Source: Moraxellaceae bacterium
GTDB lineage: Bacteria > Pseudomonadota > Gammaproteobacteria > Pseudomonadales > Moraxellaceae
Direction: 5' to 3'
NCBI GenBank assembly: GCA_020697295.1
Contig: JAJFBF010000002.1
Span: 1 to 64,000 of the forward strand
DNA: 64,000 bases
In this document: piece after piece, positions 1 to 7,960 of the stretch
How the letters are laid out: each line of letters begins with the position of its first letter
Position numbering within the stretch: position 1 is the stretch's first letter
Made by a program: the position numbers and the translations under genes
The notes under the pieces: model-generated
The model's input: the letters and a program-made list of their open reading frames with translations, nothing else
Databases searched by the model: none
Told to the model about the DNA's origin: nothing

Positions 1-1
1 G

Positions 2-244
2 CTGGATCCGGCCGATATCGAGCACTACATCGAACTACACCGTACCGAGCTGGAACGTCACACCGGCCGCGCCATTGACCGCGACGAGTGGCGCTACGGT
101 TACAAGCTGGCGCTGCGCGACCTCCTGGTGAACCGCATGCCGCTCTACATGATGGCGCATACCTTCCGCCATTATGAATTCATGGAGCGCGCCTACCGGA
201 CGTTCCGCGAGCTGCTGGTGCTGGAAGGAGTACGCGTCTCGTGA
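2..244 (+). CDS. C-terminal fragment of unrecognised protein, possibly a phosphotransferase/kinase
   Basis: Open from the window edge to a TGA at 242-244, giving about 80 residues rich in Arg, Tyr and Leu that end RTFRELLVLEGVRVS. The stop overlaps the next gene's GTG/ATG start region, so it is the upstream member of the lipid-type operon that follows. The helical, aromatic-rich tail resembles the C-termini of aminoglycoside/choline-kinase-like phosphotransferases, but no catalytic motif lies inside the window, so this is a weak guess. Its coding status is supported by good codon use and the translationally coupled junction. Confidence 0.5.
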   Translation: MDPADIEHYIELHRTELERHTGRAIDRDEWRYGYKLALRDLLVNRMPLYMMAHTFRHYEFMERAYRTFRELLVLEGVRVS

Positions 245-2991
245 TGACTTATATCCGTACGCAGGAAGAGGCCCTGTTCCTGGCGCCCGAGCAGCTGGGC
301 GGCAAGGCTGCCAATCTGGCCTGGCTCACCCGTGAAGGCTTGCCGGTGCCGCGCTGGTGGGTGGTCAGCACCGACGCCTTCCGGGAGCTGCTCGACAGCA
401 ACGCGCTCTCGCCCTTCATCGAGGGCGAAATGCGCATCGTCAATCGTGCCGGCCTGGGCACCGATATCGAGGGTGTGGCCGCGCGCATTCGGGAACGCAT
501 CCTGGAGGCCACCCTGCCGGAGGCGCTGGAGCAGGAGATCGCCACCCTGGTGGCGGCCCATGACGGCTTTTTTGCCGTTCGCTCCTCGGTGCAGGGCGAG
601 GATGCGGAGGGCGCGTCCTTTGCCGGGCAGATGGACAGCTACCTGTTCCAGCGCGGCGTCGAGGCGATCCGCCAGAGTCTGCTGCAGGTGGCGGCATCGG
701 CATTCAATACGCGCGCCTTGCTCTACCGCAAGGCCAAGAACATTCCGCTGACCGATATCCGCACCGCCGTGATCCTGCAGGAGATGGTGGAAGGCGAGGT
801 CTCGGGCGTCATGTTTACCGCGCATCCGGTCACCGGTAGTCGTCAGCATGCGCTGATCTCCGCCGCCTGGGGTGTGGGCGAGGGCATCGTCGCCGGCATT
901 TGCAACACGGATGAATTCAGCGTCGGCCTTGCTGACGGAGTCATCGAGCGCAGTATCGCGGACAAGGACGTGGCCGTGGTGTTCGCGGCCGGGGAAGGCC
1001 GTGGCACGCAGGAAGTCGAGGTGGAGGAAGGGCGGCGCCGGATGCCGGCCCTCACCGATCCCCAGGTGCTGGCCTTGCGCGATATCGGGACGCGCATCGC
1101 CACCTTGCGCCGCTTCCCGCAAGACATCGAATGGACGCTGCGCGGCGGTCAGTTCCATGTCCTGCAGACCCGCCCCGTCACCCGCCTGCCTTCGCCCACG
1201 GCCCCGGTTGACCGGCGTGTGGTCTTCGATAACTCCAACATCCAGGAGTCCTACTGTGGCGTCACCACGCCGCTGACGTTTTCCTTTGCCAGTCGCGCCT
1301 ATGCCACCGTCTACGAGCAGACCATGCGCGTGCTGGGCGTGTCTGAACAGCAGGTCCAGGCCCACCGCGACATGCTCGACAACATGCTGGGGCTGGTGCA
1401 CGGCCGCATCTACTACAACATCAACAACTGGTATCGCGGCCTGTTGCTGCTGCCCTCCTTCCGCACCAACAAGGCCGATCTCGAGCGCATGATGGGGCTC
1501 ACCGATCCGGTCGACCTGGTCGAGGATCGTGAATTCAGCCTGGGCGAGAAGCTGGCGCGCCTGCCGCAGGTGTTGCGCGCCCTGTTCCACCTCATGCGAG
1601 GCTTCCGGCGCATGCCGGTACTGGTGCGGGAATTCCGCGCCCTGTTCGATTCGGTGTATCGCAGCGTGCCGCGTGACCAGCTGCATACGCTGACGCCGGG
1701 TCAGCTCATCGAGCAGTCGCGCTTGCTGGAGCGCGAGCTGATGAAGCGTTGGACCAGCCCCATCATCAATGATTTTTACGTGATGATGATGAACGGCCGC
1801 GTGCATCGCGCCCTTGTGGCCGCCGGCTTCGAGCAGCCGGCCGTGCTGCAGAACAACCTGCTCTCCGGCGAGGAGGGTATCGAGAGCACCGAGCCGACCA
1901 AGTTCCTGCTGCGCCTTTGTGCCTATGTGCGCACGCAGCCGGCGCTGCGCACGCTCGTCGAGCAGGCGGACAACGCCACCTTGCTGGCGCGCGTGCAGGT
2001 GCAGGATCCGGTCTTTCACGCGCAATGCCAGGACTATATCGAGCGCTATGGCGACCGCACCATCGGCGAACTCAAGCTGGAGTCGGTGACGCTGCGCCAG
2101 GATACGTCTTTCCTCTTTGCCATCCTCAAGAACTACCTGACGCGCGACGACCTGACGCCCGAGTCGCTGGCGGCCAAGGAGGCGCAGTTCCGCGCCCAGG
2201 CCGAAGCCGATGCCTTTGGCGCCATCCGGCAGAAGCAGGGGCTGCTGGCGCTGCGCCGGTTCCACAAGGATATCGCCCGGCTGCGCGACGCCATTCGCAA
2301 TCGCGAGAACATGCGCCTGGCGCGCACCCGTCTCTTCGGCTTGTACCGGGACATCTTCCTGGAAATTGGCCGGCAGTTTGCGTTCGACGGCCTGCTGGCC
2401 GCGCCGCGCGACATTTTCTATCTCACCGTCGATGAGCTCTATGCCTGGTATGACGGGCGCGCGGTGCAGACCGACCTCAAGGCGCTGGTGACGGCGCGCC
2501 AGCATGAGTACGCGGGTTACGAGGATGCCGACCTGCCGCATCACTTCTGGGCCTGGGGCATGGTCTATCACCACAATGCCTACGCCTATCCGCATGTCGA
2601 GGTGACGCAGGAGGACGGCGACCTGCGCGGGACGGGCTGCTATCCGGGCATCGTCGAGGAAAAGGTGCGGCTGATTTTCTCTCCCGACGACGAGCTCTCG
2701 CTCAACGGACAGATCCTGTGCACGGTGCGTACCGACCCGGGCTGGGCGCCCCTGTTCCCCACGGCGGGCGGCCTGCTCGTGGAGCGCGGCTCCACACTCT
2801 CCCATTCCGCCGTGGTGGCGCGCGAACTCGGCATTCCGGCCATTGTCGGCATTCCCGGCATAACCAAACTGCTGCAGGACGGCGAGCGCGTGCGCATGGA
2901 TGGCGCCACCGGCAGCATCGAACGCCTGGACCTTCCTCCTTCAAATGATGCGGCGGCCCCGGCGGCCGGCGCGGAATCCGACGAGGTGTGA
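241..2991 (+). CDS. PEP-synthase/PPDK-like dikinase with rifampin-phosphotransferase architecture
   Basis: Predicted ATP-dependent dikinase that transfers phosphate through a swivelling histidine to an acceptor. Residues 20-320 are the PPDK N-terminal ATP-grasp region (GGKAANLAWL; FAVRSSVQGEDAEGASFAGQ at 111-130; QTRPVTRLP near its end). A long middle domain of about 500 residues follows, and the PEP-utilisers mobile domain is at the very C-terminus (GSTLSHSAVVARELGIPAI, phospho-His855). This order (ATP-grasp, middle, His) is that of rifampin phosphotransferase, not of PpsA/PpdK, whose His domain is central and followed by a PEP-binding TIM barrel absent here. The acceptor is therefore probably an alcohol bound by the middle domain (inference). 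GTG at 241 or ATG at 244 could start it; both overlap the upstream stop. It ends one base before the next gene's ATG. Confidence 0.85.
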   Translation: MMTYIRTQEEALFLAPEQLGGKAANLAWLTREGLPVPRWWVVSTDAFRELLDSNALSPFIEGEMRIVNRAGLGTDIEGVAARIRERILEATLPEALEQEIATLVAAHDGFFAVRSSVQGEDAEGASFAGQMDSYLFQRGVEAIRQSLLQVAASAFNTRALLYRKAKNIPLTDIRTAVILQEMVEGEVSGVMFTAHPVTGSRQHALISAAWGVGEGIVAGICNTDEFSVGLADGVIERSIADKDVAVVFAAGEGRGTQEVEVEEGRRRMPALTDPQVLALRDIGTRIATLRRFPQDIEWTLRGGQFHVLQTRPVTRLPSPTAPVDRRVVFDNSNIQESYCGVTTPLTFSFASRAYATVYEQTMRVLGVSEQQVQAHRDMLDNMLGLVHGRIYYNINNWYRGLLLLPSFRTNKADLERMMGLTDPVDLVEDREFSLGEKLARLPQVLRALFHLMRGFRRMPVLVREFRALFDSVYRSVPRDQLHTLTPGQLIEQSRLLERELMKRWTSPIINDFYVMMMNGRVHRALVAAGFEQPAVLQNNLLSGEEGIESTEPTKFLLRLCAYVRTQPALRTLVEQADNATLLARVQVQDPVFHAQCQDYIERYGDRTIGELKLESVTLRQDTSFLFAILKNYLTRDDLTPESLAAKEAQFRAQAEADAFGAIRQKQGLLALRRFHKDIARLRDAIRNRENMRLARTRLFGLYRDIFLEIGRQFAFDGLLAAPRDIFYLTVDELYAWYDGRAVQTDLKALVTARQHEYAGYEDADLPHHFWAWGMVYHHNAYAYPHVEVTQEDGDLRGTGCYPGIVEEKVRLIFSPDDELSLNGQILCTVRTDPGWAPLFPTAGGLLVERGSTLSHSAVVARELGIPAIVGIPGITKLLQDGERVRMDGATGSIERLDLPPSNDAAAPAAGAESDEV

Positions 2992-2992
2992 C

Positions 2993-4102
2993 ATGACCGA
3001 CCGCATGGGCCCCTGGAATCCGCAGGACCCCCTGCCCGAGGCCTTCGTGGCCTTGCCTGCGCAGGTGTATGGCAACGACTCCTTTTGGCTGGGAGAGGAT
3101 GGCGATGCCCTGCGAGAGCAATTCAGTTCCGCCAATCCCTGGTTTGCCAACGGCAAGGCCTGGCTCGGCGTCATTCCCGGGCAGGCGCGCCTGGCGGGCT
3201 TCTGTCAGGGCCAGCGCGTCGATGGCGAGTGCGCGGCCTTCTTCGGTTATTGGGAGGGCATCAACTCGGTGACGCCCCACCGGCGCCTGTTCTCCGCCAT
3301 GGAGCGATGGGCACGGGAGCAGGGCGCCACGCGTCTTTACGGCCCCATCAATTTCACCACCTTTGGCGCCAATCGCCTGCGCCTGGATGCCTTTGACCGC
3401 GGCGCCTTTCCCGGGGAGCCGTGGAACCCGCCGTATTATGCCGACCTGCTGGTGGAGCTCGGCTTGGAGCTACGCTACCGCTACTTCTCCACCTTCAATC
3501 CCACCGCCAATGTGGTGGCCTCGGTGGGGCCGGATTATCTGCGAGTGAAGCCGCGCATTGAGGCCGTCGTGGAATTGTCCGCGATGACGCCGGAATTCTG
3601 GCTGGCCAATCTCGAGGAACTCTTTCCTTTCGTGGGCGAGGTCTTCGGTGGCAACTTCGCCTATACGCCGATCTCGCGCGAGGCCTTTGGCCGTCAGTGC
3701 GGCGCGGACTTTGCGCAGCGTTTCTGCCCGCGCACCTCGGTGCTGGCGCGCGACCGCGCCGGCCGCATTGCCGGCTTCTTCCTGGTGTATCCCGATTACG
3801 GGCCCCTGCTGCGGCAGTCGGCCGGCGCCGCGCGCGTCACTGGCGAGGTCAGCTACGCGGAACACTTCGATCGCCTGCCAGCGCCGCGTCGCGCGCTGGC
3901 CCGCACCGGGGGCGTCCATCCCGATTACCGTTCGCTCGGCCTCTTTACCGCCATGGGTTGTGAACTCAGCCTGCGCGCCGAGGGCCTCTATGACGAGATG
4001 GTCGCGCCGCTGGTGCGCGAGGACAACAATTCCCGCCAGTTCGCCCTGCGTCACGGCCTGGCGCACCAGCACCACTATGGTCTATTCCAATGCCCGCTTT
4101 GA
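2993..4102 (+). CDS. GNAT-like (YghO-type) acyltransferase family protein
   Basis: 369 residues, starting at ATG 2993, one base after the dikinase stop. It matches the roughly 370-residue GNAT-fold family to which YghO belongs: the segment around residues 120-160 (GPINFTTFGANRLRLDAFD, then [16 protein letters not shown]) is the family hallmark, and the C-terminal third has a GNAT-like core (GGVHPDYRSLGLFTAMG) near residues 300-320. The acyl donor and acceptor are unknown. It sits between the dikinase and an AMP-dependent ligase and overlaps the ligase start by 13 bases, so the three are co-translated. That position suggests transfer of an activated acyl or aminoacyl group in lipid assembly (inference). 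No signal peptide or membrane segment is visible. Confidence 0.65.
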   Translation: MTDRMGPWNPQDPLPEAFVALPAQVYGNDSFWLGEDGDALREQFSSANPWFANGKAWLGVIPGQARLAGFCQGQRVDGECAAFFGYWEGINSVTPHRRLFSAMERWAREQGATRLYGPINFTTFGANRLRLDAFDRGAFPGEPWNPPYYADLLVELGLELRYRYFSTFNPTANVVASVGPDYLRVKPRIEAVVELSAMTPEFWLANLEELFPFVGEVFGGNFAYTPISREAFGRQCGADFAQRFCPRTSVLARDRAGRIAGFFLVYPDYGPLLRQSAGAARVTGEVSYAEHFDRLPAPRRALARTGGVHPDYRSLGLFTAMGCELSLRAEGLYDEMVAPLVREDNNSRQFALRHGLAHQHHYGLFQCPL

Positions 4103-5703
4103 TGAACGGCATCAATGTCTGCACGCGCATATCTGAAGCGGCCGCGCGCCATCCGGAACGTCTGGCCATTCGTGTGCCGCGGGCGGCGGATGACTATGCC
4201 AGCAGCGAGCAGCTGCGCTACGGGGAGCTCCTGGCGCAGGCCGCTGCGCGGCAGCAGGCCCTGCGCGCGATCGGGCTGCAGCCTGGCGACCGCGTACTCT
4301 TGCTGGCGCGTCCCGGACTGGGCTTGTATGGACTGATGGTGGCGCTGCTGGCGAGCGGCATCGTGCCGGTGCTGATCGACCGCGGCATGAGCCGTGCGCG
4401 CATGGTGGCGGCGCTGCGCGCCTCGGGCGCCCGCGTGGCGATCGGCGAACGCGACATCATGAAGTTCTGGTGGCTGGTGCCGGCACTTTGGCGCCTGCGC
4501 CGCTTCGCCTTCGATGGCCGCGCCTTCGGTGTCGCGACATTGGGTGGCGACGCGACCCGGCCCGGCCTGGCACTCGAGTGCGTGCCGCTGCCGCCGACGG
4601 CCCACGGTCTGATCACCTTTACTTCCGGCAGCACCGGCATACCCAAGGGCGCGAACCGCACCCATGGCAGCCTGATCGAGCAACACCTCGCCATCCGTTC
4701 ACACTGGCAGGATCGCGACGACGACATCGACATGCCCTGCTTTCCGGTACTGGTGCTGCATAACCTGTGCTGTGGCATCAGCACGGTCATGCCGGCGGTG
4801 GACCTCGCCACGCCCGGCGATCCGAAGGTGGCGCGCGTGGCGCAGCAACTGGTGGAGGAGGGCGTCACTCGCCTGAGCGCGGCGCCGGCATTCGTGGGCA
4901 AGCTGCTCCTTCATGCGCAGCAGCATGGCCTGACCTTTCCCGGCCTGCGTTCGCTCGTGGTCGGCGGCGCCACCCTGCCGCCCGGCATGGCCGAGGCCTG
5001 CCTGCAGGTCTTTCCCCGGGCGGAGTGCCGCATTGTTTACGGCTCCACCGAGGCCGAGCCGATTGCCGAGGTCAGCATGGCCGACTTTATCGCGCACGCC
5101 GGCCAGGGCCGTGGCCATTTGCTGGGGCATCCCGCGACCGTCGCGCAAGTGCGCATCGTCGATCCTGCGCACCCGCTGGAGACCGAGGCCGATGTGGACA
5201 GCGCTGGCGTAGCCATGGGTGAAAGCGGCGAGATCCTGGTGGCCGGCCCGCATGTTTTGCAGGGCTATGTCGATAATCCCGGCGCCGATCGCGAATCCAA
5301 GATTCGCCGCGCCGACGGACTGGTCTGGCACCGTACCGGCGATAGCGGCTATCTCGATACCGGGGGACGGCTGTGGCTGGAAGGCCGGCTCAAGGATGCC
5401 GTGACGGTGGCGGGCCAGCCGCGCCATACCTTTGAGATTGAAAAAACCATCGACGCATTGCCGGGTGTTGCGCGTAGCGCGTTGCTGCAGGGCGTGGAGG
5501 GCGAGCTGGTCCTGGTGCTGGCCGGCGCCGTGCCAGCGGCCGCGACGCTGGCGCCGCTGCTGCGCGCGCAGGGCTTCCCTGTGATGGGCCTCTATGCCAT
5601 CGACGCCATGCCTGTGGATGGCCGCCACAACAGCAAGATTGATCGCGCGGCGCTGCGTGACGCCCTGGCCCGCGATCGTTTGTCCGCACTGGGAGAGGTG
5701 TAA
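4090..5703 (+). CDS. AMP-dependent synthetase/ligase (ANL superfamily, OleC-like)
   Basis: 537 residues. Adenylate-forming enzyme: phosphate-binding loop TFTSGSTGIPKG at 177-188, YGSTEAEP at 317-324, the TGD core at 416-418, the hinge GRLKD at 432-436 and a late lysine in NSKIDRAALRD. Features such as RPGLGLYGLMVALLASGIVPVLIDRGM-type spacing and the FPVLVLHN segment resemble OleC/fatty-acyl-AMP-ligase-like proteins rather than acetyl-CoA synthetases. The start ATG lies inside the preceding gene (13-base overlap), and its TAA overlaps the next ATG by one base (taATG). It probably activates a long-chain acid; whether CoA, another acyl acceptor or ring closure follows cannot be read from sequence. 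It differs from true OleC operons in that no oleA, oleB or oleD gene is adjacent. Confidence 0.8.
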   Translation: MPALMNGINVCTRISEAAARHPERLAIRVPRAADDYASSEQLRYGELLAQAAARQQALRAIGLQPGDRVLLLARPGLGLYGLMVALLASGIVPVLIDRGMSRARMVAALRASGARVAIGERDIMKFWWLVPALWRLRRFAFDGRAFGVATLGGDATRPGLALECVPLPPTAHGLITFTSGSTGIPKGANRTHGSLIEQHLAIRSHWQDRDDDIDMPCFPVLVLHNLCCGISTVMPAVDLATPGDPKVARVAQQLVEEGVTRLSAAPAFVGKLLLHAQQHGLTFPGLRSLVVGGATLPPGMAEACLQVFPRAECRIVYGSTEAEPIAEVSMADFIAHAGQGRGHLLGHPATVAQVRIVDPAHPLETEADVDSAGVAMGESGEILVAGPHVLQGYVDNPGADRESKIRRADGLVWHRTGDSGYLDTGGRLWLEGRLKDAVTVAGQPRHTFEIEKTIDALPGVARSALLQGVEGELVLVLAGAVPAAATLAPLLRAQGFPVMGLYAIDAMPVDGRHNSKIDRAALRDALARDRLSALGEV

Positions 5704-6326
5704 TGCCGGCGCCAATGTTCATCATCCGCCTCAATCGCGTCGATCTGCTGACGCTCTCCGGCGTTGTCACCTCGAGCCTCGCGGTGGGCGCGATCCTACA
5801 GGGCCATTTCCATCTCGCCACCGGCCTGCTCTTCATCGCCATGCTCGGCGATGCGCTGGATGGCATGCTGGCGCGGCGCTGGGGCCTCGTGCGCAATTTC
5901 GGCCGCTATCTCGACGGCTTCATGGATCTGCTGATTTATCTCGTGACGCCGGCGCTGGCCTGGTACCTGACCGGCTTCGACGGCGCCTGGAGCGTGTTCC
6001 TGCTGGCGATGATCGGCGCCGGCTGCGTGCGCCTGGCGGTCTTCAATGACATCGGCAACCTCCAGGAGGAAAGCGGGCTGGCTTACCTCGGCATGCCCGT
6101 GTTCTGGAGTGTCTTCATGCTGGGCGGCTTCCAGTTGCTGGAGCTGTTCCTGCCCCGCCCCTGGAGCCTGGCGCTGCTCGCCGTCGTGTTGTCGCTGTTC
6201 AGTCTTGCCATGCTCTGGCACCGGCCCTTCTTCAAGTTCAAGAAGCTCTCGCACATCCTCGGCCTGACGCTCGGGGGCGCGACGCTGTTCCTGGCGCTGC
6301 ATGTGGCGGGAGTCGGTCATGCATGA
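5703..6326 (+). CDS. CDP-alcohol phosphatidyltransferase family membrane protein
   Basis: 207 residues, strongly hydrophobic with about six membrane segments. The complete family motif D-x2-DG-x2-AR-x8-G-x3-D-x3-D is present as GDALDGMLARR...GRYLDGFMD, with metal-binding Asp50, Asp53, Asp71 and Asp75. Such enzymes swap CMP of a CDP-activated lipid for an alcohol headgroup (serine, inositol, glycerol-phosphate, choline). The length and short N-terminus resemble PssA/PgsA-type enzymes, but the headgroup cannot be predicted. The start overlaps the upstream stop by one base; the next ATG, in MFII, is four codons in. The next gene is a CTP-transferase-like protein that could supply its CDP-lipid substrate. 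Confidence 0.85.
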   Translation: MPAPMFIIRLNRVDLLTLSGVVTSSLAVGAILQGHFHLATGLLFIAMLGDALDGMLARRWGLVRNFGRYLDGFMDLLIYLVTPALAWYLTGFDGAWSVFLLAMIGAGCVRLAVFNDIGNLQEESGLAYLGMPVFWSVFMLGGFQLLELFLPRPWSLALLAVVLSLFSLAMLWHRPFFKFKKLSHILGLTLGGATLFLALHVAGVGHA

Positions 6327-6855
6327 GCTGCTGCTGGTCTGGTACCTGCAGGTCCCGGTGGTCTTCGGGGGTGTGCTGCACATGCTGGTGGTGAGCCGCG
6401 GATGGCTGCCGTCGCTGGTGGTCCCGGTGCACCGCCAGCTGTTTGGCGCCAACAAGACCTGGCGCGGCTTTGTGGTGGTGCCGCTGCTGACGGCGCTGGG
6501 TGCGCTGCTGTTGGTGCCGGGCGAGCTCCTGCTGGGCGAGAACGCTCCCATCGGCGTTGCGTGGCTGCTGCCCGCCGGCCTCCTGGCGGGTCTGGGCTAC
6601 ATGCTGGGCGAATTGCCCAATTCCTTTTTCAAGCGCCGGCTCGGCATCGCGCCGGGAGCGACGCCCGACCGCGGCCGCGCCTTTTTTGTATTGCTGGACC
6701 AGCTCGACTCCGGCATCGGCGTGGCACTGGCCTATGCCCTTTTCCCGGGGCTTACGCTTTCCGCCTTCCTGTTGTTCGTGCTGACGTTTCCGCTCACGGC
6801 CCTGGGCGTGAAGCGCCTGCTTTACCTGGCCAAGCTCAAGGCCAACCCGGCCTGA
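6319..6855 (+). CDS. CDP-archaeol synthase-like protein (CarS/DUF46 family)
   Basis: 178 residues from ATG 6319, overlapping the upstream gene by 8 bases; ATG 6301 is an alternative. Four to five membrane segments. It carries signatures of the CarS/DUF46 family: GANKTWRG at 43-50, GELPNSFFKRRLGI at 97-110 and LDQLDS at 126-131. CarS in archaea is the CTP:2,3-di-O-geranylgeranyl-glycerol-1-phosphate cytidylyltransferase, related to CdsA. Bacterial homologues exist but are little studied. Placed directly behind a CDP-alcohol phosphatidyltransferase, it most likely makes the CDP-activated lipid used by that enzyme (inference). No archaeal-type prenylglycerol synthase is visible in the window, so the lipid need not be an ether lipid. 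Confidence 0.75.
   Translation: MHELLLVWYLQVPVVFGGVLHMLVVSRGWLPSLVVPVHRQLFGANKTWRGFVVVPLLTALGALLLVPGELLLGENAPIGVAWLLPAGLLAGLGYMLGELPNSFFKRRLGIAPGATPDRGRAFFVLLDQLDSGIGVALAYALFPGLTLSAFLLFVLTFPLTALGVKRLLYLAKLKANPA

Positions 6856-6970: not shown

Positions 6971-7960
<990 letters not shown>

Follow-up and report, generated by a model that had tools for sequence, protein, structure and literature searches.

A conserved gene block for a putative additional phospholipid in a Moraxellaceae bacterium

What do the genes at the start of contig JAJFBF010000002.1 of a Moraxellaceae bacterium (NCBI GenBank assembly GCA_020697295.1) make? The stretch analysed here, called the window below, comprises the first 64,000 nucleotides of this contig. 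In the initial annotation, five complete, tightly overlapping genes were read as a dedicated operon for an extra phospholipid. Reading frames and inspection of the junctions confirm five complete, translationally coupled plus-strand genes within 241-6855. The genes are thus real, but the unit comprises about ten genes, of which these five are about half, and it starts with genes that are cut off by the window. A dedicated lipid pathway with export of the product is well supported, and the same gene order recurs in distant genomes. In our preferred reading, which has about an even chance of being right, the pathway would start from a fatty alcohol, with phosphorylation by a kinase fused to the reductase and subsequent activation by cytidine diphosphate (CDP).

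A profile search for the CarS-like gene in 390 genomes of the order gave 32 matches at E <= 1e-3, of which 12 are strong (E 4.6e-32 or better) and 20 weaker (8.0e-8 to 9.1e-4). Two loci from the weaker group were inspected; L132 has the CarS match only, and L131 has none. In 7 of the 12 strong genomes (the source genome, G028, G085, G071, G517, G623 and G638), which belong to five families, seven core genes are found in the same order, namely a UbiA-type gene, a reductase-kinase fusion, a dikinase, a GNAT-like gene, an AMP-forming ligase, a CDP-alcohol transferase and the CarS-like gene. In the source genome, this order extends over two contigs. Recurrence in distant genomes had been named beforehand as the check on the operon, and it was found here as well as, for a related core, on an alphaproteobacterial plasmid. 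Two further clusters have part of this set. G657 has six of the seven genes; a GNAT of the window's family was not found in the fetched stretch, and the transferase lies about 3.6 kb away, behind a cytochrome P450 and other genes. G618 has only four, the fusion, the GNAT-like gene, the transferase and the CarS-like gene. A dikinase of the operon's group was found nowhere in its genome, and no UbiA-type gene near the cluster in the fetched stretch. All neighbourhood searches cover fetched stretches only, two of which are short (L038, 11.4 kb; L130, 4.5 kb).

In the nine clusters without a phosphatidylserine decarboxylase (Psd) gene, the fusion is always present, as are the CarS-like gene and the CDP-alcohol transferase, and the dikinase is present in eight. 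Transport genes stand beside the core, with an MMPL gene at six of these nine loci and LolA-like and barrel-like genes at four each. In a sample of 398 genomes from the phylum, the source genome was the sole match for CarS (at 1e-15) and for UbiA (at 1e-10). Scans of viral contigs with CarS and UbiA gave no relative, and a scan of genome contigs with the ligase gave one weak match (27% identity) that was not used further. No evident lipid genes surround the PPDK pair of a Natrinema plasmid.

The distances between the gene copies bear on how the block has spread. Across seven genomes, the distances between the copies of each core gene, taken from its best single BLAST segment, correlate among the seven genes with r of 0.78-0.97. 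With RecA distances, r is 0.38 for the dikinase and 0.30 for the fusion, the only two genes compared. Averaged over RecA distances, none of the seven genomes lies further from the others than the source genome. Since the core distances agree with each other and poorly with RecA, and since the nearest copies of all seven source genes are those of G028, the data fit a horizontally mobile operon transferred as a unit, judged by the poor fit to this one marker.

The genes missing from the window can be placed. The frame at its very start is 60% identical over 70 residues to the end of the 932-residue fusion of L037 (L038, 52%; L039, 37%). The fusion gene of the source genome is split, with residues 55-867 on contig C130 and residues 858-928 on contig C17. 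Upstream of the fusion, the end of C130 carries the UbiA-type gene, an MMPL transporter, a barrel-like gene (labelled by eye; the L037 homologue has no Pfam match) and a LolA-like gene. The operon genes are directly preceded by rsgA and orn on C130, and directly followed by DUF808, queG, nnr and tsaE in the window. In E. coli K-12, the order is rsgA, orn, three tRNA genes, yjeV, queG, nnr, tsaE. Because these flanks match, C130 and the window contig most likely adjoin, and the block is most likely an insertion between orn and queG. The source genome (3.7 Mb in 145 contigs) is 99.17% complete with 5.02% contamination. Between neighbouring operon genes in the window, the overlap ranges from 1 to about 25 bases according to the starts assumed; one pair instead stands one base apart (2991/2993; Table 1).

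Table 1. Genes of the block that lie in the window
Gene	Position	Strand	Remarks
FcrA-like reductase / APH-like kinase fusion, 3' end (end of kinase domain)	2..244	+	truncated by contig start
PPDK-type dikinase	241 (GTG; or ATG 244)..2991	+	ATP-grasp, undefined middle, swivelling His domain
GNAT-like acyltransferase	2993..4102	+	probable distant kin of GNATs in ceramide-type gene clusters
AMP-forming acyl ligase	4090 (or 4102)..5703	+	PF00501, NF006754
CDP-alcohol phosphatidyltransferase	5703..6326	+	PF01066, signature motif
CarS-like CTP:lipid-phosphate cytidylyltransferase	6301 (more likely 6319)..6855	+	PF01864, conserved motifs

Most family identities of the initial annotation hold by Pfam cut-offs, as seen for the dikinase (PPDK_N 254.7, PEP-utilizers 79.4), the ligase (AMP-binding, 151.8), the transferase (CDP-OH_P_transf, 47.4, cut-off 22) and the CarS-like protein (35.5, cut-off 22). 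The GNAT-like protein, in contrast, stays below its cut-off (13.4 versus 20.7), which a distant homologue in L087 passes (31.3). The active site motifs are intact. The histidine motif of the dikinase and the P-loop and C-terminal lysine motifs of the ligase are present in 8/8 sequences, and the D..DG..AR...G..LD...D signature of the transferase in 9/9. The CarS-like proteins have NKTxRG and DQxDS in 9/9 and ELPNSxxKR in 8/9. The UbiA-type copy of the source genome belongs to NF004617 (309.7, cut-off 239) and remains below the Pfam cut-off (PF01040, 30.3 versus 34.2); its Asp-rich RxxDExxDxxxD motif is kept in 8/8.

The more specific labels fared less well. "RPH-like" and "OleC-like" apply loosely, but the dikinase is far from the rifamycin phosphotransferase model (NF041857, 357.1, cut-off 999), and the ligase from the olefin beta-lactone synthetase model (NF045786, 200.7, cut-off 900). 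The dikinase is a member of NF004883, which is named phosphoenolpyruvate (PEP) synthase (1497.4 bits, cut-off 1063); no PEP/pyruvate-binding domain was found in it, and its solved relatives are 5hv2 and 5fbs. For the ligase, the family is NF006754 (PRK09274-type fatty acid CoA ligase; 499.1, cut-off 478). The transferase comes closest to the NCBIfam models of archaetidylserine synthase and PssA but reaches neither cut-off (TIGR00473 for PssA, 56.6 versus 107), and the CarS-like protein is no member of the CDP-archaeol synthase equivalog (NF003114, 48.6, cut-off 148).

As the initial annotation stated, no canonical pssA, pgsA or cdsA lies beside the operon. The source genome has two further CDP-OH_P_transf genes, by score and size probably of PgsA and PssA type, and its CdsA-type gene is in two pieces at contig ends. 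CdsA-type genes above cut-off occur in 11 of the 12 cluster genomes. Because such genes are found elsewhere in the genome, the operon is taken to encode an extra pathway. G119 (L040, 74% complete) has the CarS-like gene and no CdsA-type gene above cut-off, so that either the CarS-like protein is its sole such enzyme or the assembly has a gap.

Among 369 genomes of the class, 30 have a match to the GNAT-like profile, the source genome included. Twelve loci were fetched from the 30 genomes and ten read by eye. Genes like serine palmitoyltransferase stand near the GNAT homologue in 4/10, and epimerase- or ligase-like genes in more; no serine-palmitoyltransferase-like gene was seen in the operon. 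We take the protein to be a distant relative of bacterial ceramide synthase, here without a gene for the sphingoid base. A single-sequence AlphaFold model (mean pLDDT, the predicted local distance difference test, 35.9) was unusable and was not used. The proteobacterial ceramide and phosphosphingolipid clusters, as far as described in passages of PMC11324152, share with the operon a probably related GNAT family and a nearby AMP ligase; a lipid kinase follows, and genes for transport to the outer membrane have been proposed there too. They differ in their serine palmitoyltransferase, in place of which the operon has the CDP chemistry of CarS and transferase, and in the transport genes.

What does the reductase reduce? 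In other genomes, the complete fusion consists of a class-I 3-hydroxy-3-methylglutaryl-CoA (HMG-CoA) reductase-like domain and an APH-like kinase. According to passages of PMC11948995, the HMG-CoA reductase homologues termed FcrA act on long-chain acyl-CoA, which they reduce to the fatty alcohol, and not on HMG-CoA. In FcrA, the catalytic residues are kept and three residues of the HMG pocket are changed, with glutamate at Ser684, a bulky residue at Leu862 (tryptophan in the example) and varied, generally small residues at Lys735 (the text of that paper prints Lys795 for the position treated here as Lys735). The operon fusions follow this pattern. In the alignment, the catalytic Glu559, Lys691, Asp767 and His866 are conserved in 9/9, including the source copy. 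At the Ser684 position, seven have glutamate and two aspartate; at Leu862 all nine have phenylalanine; at Lys735 none has lysine. The reductase on the alphaproteobacterial plasmid and a related fusion from a Streptomyces plasmid also have Glu, Phe and no Lys. A control HMG-CoA reductase from a Streptomyces mevalonate operon (L139) has Ser and Leu, with the lysine one column off and the Glu559 column misaligned. HMG-CoA synthase, the mevalonate partner, was not found in 11 of the 12 cluster genomes by a search that was positive in 7 of 14 control genomes; absences of genes are weaker evidence in G119, G657 (84% complete) and G674 (87%). Since the HMG-pocket residues are lost and the synthase is mostly absent, and in view of the FcrA precedent, we consider with moderate confidence that the fusion reductase is more likely a fatty acyl-CoA reductase than an HMG-CoA reductase. 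Unlike FcrA, it is fused to an APH-like kinase and lies among phospholipid genes; the FcrA passages of PMC11948995 mention no kinase.

On this basis, we infer the reactions, their order, the export and the product as follows. A mobile operon of about ten genes would make and export an extra phospholipid with a chain derived from a fatty alcohol. The FcrA-like domain would reduce a long-chain acyl-CoA to the alcohol, and the fused APH-like kinase would phosphorylate this alcohol or an intermediate that bears it. The CarS-like enzyme would convert the lipid phosphate to a CDP-lipid, to which the CDP-alcohol phosphatidyltransferase would add a polar head, serine-like by similarity. A second acid would be activated by the AMP ligase for transfer by the GNAT-like enzyme. 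The dikinase and the UbiA-type protein, as yet unplaced, may contribute a further phosphorylation and a prenyl or alkyl transfer. Finally, the MMPL, LolA-like and barrel-like proteins would carry the product to the outer membrane. Because G618 keeps the fusion, the GNAT-like gene, the transferase and the CarS-like gene without a dikinase, CarS may receive its substrate from the fused kinase rather than from the dikinase, and this gene set favours the fatty alcohol reading.

Several observations speak against this picture. The phenylalanine at Leu862 is not the tryptophan of the FcrA example, and G638 has an arginine at Lys735. Other bacterial HMG-CoA reductase-like proteins in the alignment also lose HMG-type residues, so that lipid clusters are not alone in showing this pattern (genes from Alteromonas, Streptomyces, Sinorhizobium and Vibrio served for comparison only). 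The N-terminal domain of the fusion, at best a possible counterpart of the carrier domain of some FcrA proteins, has no Pfam match. The GNAT family otherwise appears to adjoin enzymes that make amines (sphingoid bases), and the operon lacks an apparent amine source. The dikinase and the UbiA-type protein are not explained by the proposed route. Finally, the source genome carries its copy in two parts on separate contigs, and where these should overlap (window 1-43 and the end of L050), only 31 of 38 bases are identical. In tetranucleotide profile, C130 and C17 show an agreement of 0.98-0.99. If the bin contains more than one strain, this would account for both the imperfect match and the agreement.

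Related clusters suggest that the head group may vary. In a sister arrangement (G119, G684 and G674, the last cut by a contig end), Psd adjoins the CarS-like gene or the transferase, with CarS as its neighbour at L040, L128 and L130. The dikinase is present in both readable clusters of this type. The G684 cluster (L128 7026-18841) contains two dikinase homologues, UbiA, a PssA-type gene, CarS, Psd and a PigE-like aminotransferase (469.7 bits, cut-off 850); G684 has a further dikinase homologue, its third, at C1:5488331-5490961. The C-terminal part of the PigE-like protein resembles acyl-ACP reductase TIGR04058 (4.9e-16, below cut-off), and would again place a thioester-reducing enzyme in a cluster of this kind. 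A plasmid of Roseinatronobacter sp. S2 (Alphaproteobacteria) carries related core genes, which overlap, in the order HMG-CoA reductase-like, UbiA-type, dikinase (33.0% identical to the window's), DUF3419, integral-membrane protein, GNAT (matching the window's family with an hhalign probability of 98) and AMP ligase. The reductase has 443 residues, spans the record start and lacks a kinase domain. The integral-membrane protein has no useful family match in Pfam or NCBIfam and resembles polyprenol kinases by eye; the dolichol-kinase-like label of P0001 is our assumption from sequence motifs. The DUF3419 gene is presumably a BtaA-type betaine lipid gene; the window's operon has no DUF3419 and uses CarS and the transferase instead. 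Since the plasmid carries DUF3419, the related core pairs with a different head-group enzyme, and head-group modules (CarS with transferase, Psd, DUF3419) seem to alternate around it.

The unplaced dikinase leads to the first alternative, in line with the initial annotation, in which it provides CarS with the lipid phosphate and the fused kinase has another role. PPDK-type enzymes can phosphorylate alcohols, as rifamycin phosphotransferase does. The dikinase is present in almost all clusters without Psd, in those with it that can be read, and on the Roseinatronobacter plasmid, where the reductase has no fused APH domain. However, G618 has CarS and the transferase and no dikinase of the group, whereas the fusion is never missing from the nine clusters, and we regard this assignment as unlikely.

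It also seems unlikely that the product is a small amphipathic natural product rather than a membrane phospholipid, with the PPDK-type protein as a condensing ligase akin to PigC and RedH, and MMPL as exporter. The dikinase has the domain plan of RPH and PigC (PPDK_N, a middle region and the PEP-utilizers histidine domain), and its scores for PigC (314.6 bits) and RedH (305.4) are near the RPH score. G684 has the PigE-like gene and a nonribosomal peptide synthetase (NRPS)-type gene nearby, and the related Streptomyces fusion lies in an NRPS-type region. Membership in these families, unlike that in NF004883, is far off by the curated cut-offs (PigC 1300, RedH 1350), and the invariable CarS-like and CDP-alcohol transferase genes of the clusters without Psd point to a lipid head group.

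A true HMG-CoA reductase would make mevalonate, to be phosphorylated and used for an isoprenoid, archaeal-like lipid via UbiA and CarS. The fusion indeed matches PF00368 with 389.8 bits, its best solved relative, 6hr7, is an archaeal-type HMG-CoA reductase entry, and the UbiA-type, CarS-like and serine-type transferase genes together recall archaeal phospholipid synthesis (DGGGP synthase, CarS, archaetidylserine synthase). We nevertheless consider this improbable, as the HMG-binding residues are lost in all nine fusions, HMG-CoA synthase is lacking in nearly all cluster genomes, the L037 fusion is rejected by the curated NADPH-dependent HMG-CoA reductase model (TIGR00533, 298.7, cut-off 441.8), the archaeal NCBIfam cut-offs are not reached, and no GGGP-synthase-type gene was noticed in the clusters.

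The fatty alcohol could also, though doubtfully, enter an ether lipid, in a counterpart of phytol salvage. Successive phosphorylation by the fused kinase and the dikinase would give an alkyl diphosphate, and the UbiA-type protein would move the alkyl to an alcohol to form the ether. Interchangeable modules (CarS with transferase, with or without Psd, or DUF3419) might, with the same doubt, then add the head group. The Roseinatronobacter plasmid, with reductase, dikinase and UbiA types beside the polyprenol-kinase-like protein, bears on this route. To our knowledge, however, all donors of UbiA enzymes are allylic, and G618 does without both a dikinase of the group and a nearby UbiA.

A storage or wax ester pathway, in which the GNAT-like enzyme esterifies the fatty alcohol for export and the phospholipid genes are mere neighbours, would agree with the characterisation of FcrA in wax ester synthesis (passages of PMC11948995) but is very improbable, because CarS and the transferase lie inside the block and co-vary with the core, and no wax synthase gene was noticed in the clusters, although the family was not searched for as such.

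If the fatty alcohol reading is correct, the block encodes an undescribed lipid pathway that moves as one unit between bacterial families, and directly joins an acyl-CoA reductase derived from HMG-CoA reductase to kinase and CDP-lipid chemistry, with swapped head-group modules. It would make testable the suggestion, in a passage of PMC11948995, that the fatty alcohol for ether lipid synthesis may come from some of the FcrA enzymes, and would assign a function to the generically named NCBIfam families NF004883, NF006754 and NF004617. Searches of the open-access literature (bioRxiv preprints outside scope) found no description of this gene combination.

A second HMG-CoA reductase-like gene of the source genome, on contig C143 (L051 6201-7421), has no kinase domain and is 40% identical to the reductase part of the fusion; like the FcrA example, it carries Trp in place of Leu862. 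The Streptomyces fusion, on a plasmid of Streptomyces sp. NBC_01435 (L133 14557-17331), is 43% identical to that of L037 and stands beside a GH3-type gene in its NRPS-type region; the surrounding 32 kb of L133 gave no dikinase, UbiA or CarS match. The cytochrome P450 gene of the G657 variant (L126 14705-16045) adjoins CarS. In the window, a run of CAGGCT hexamer repeats lies at 6971-7035, after the last operon gene and before DUF808.

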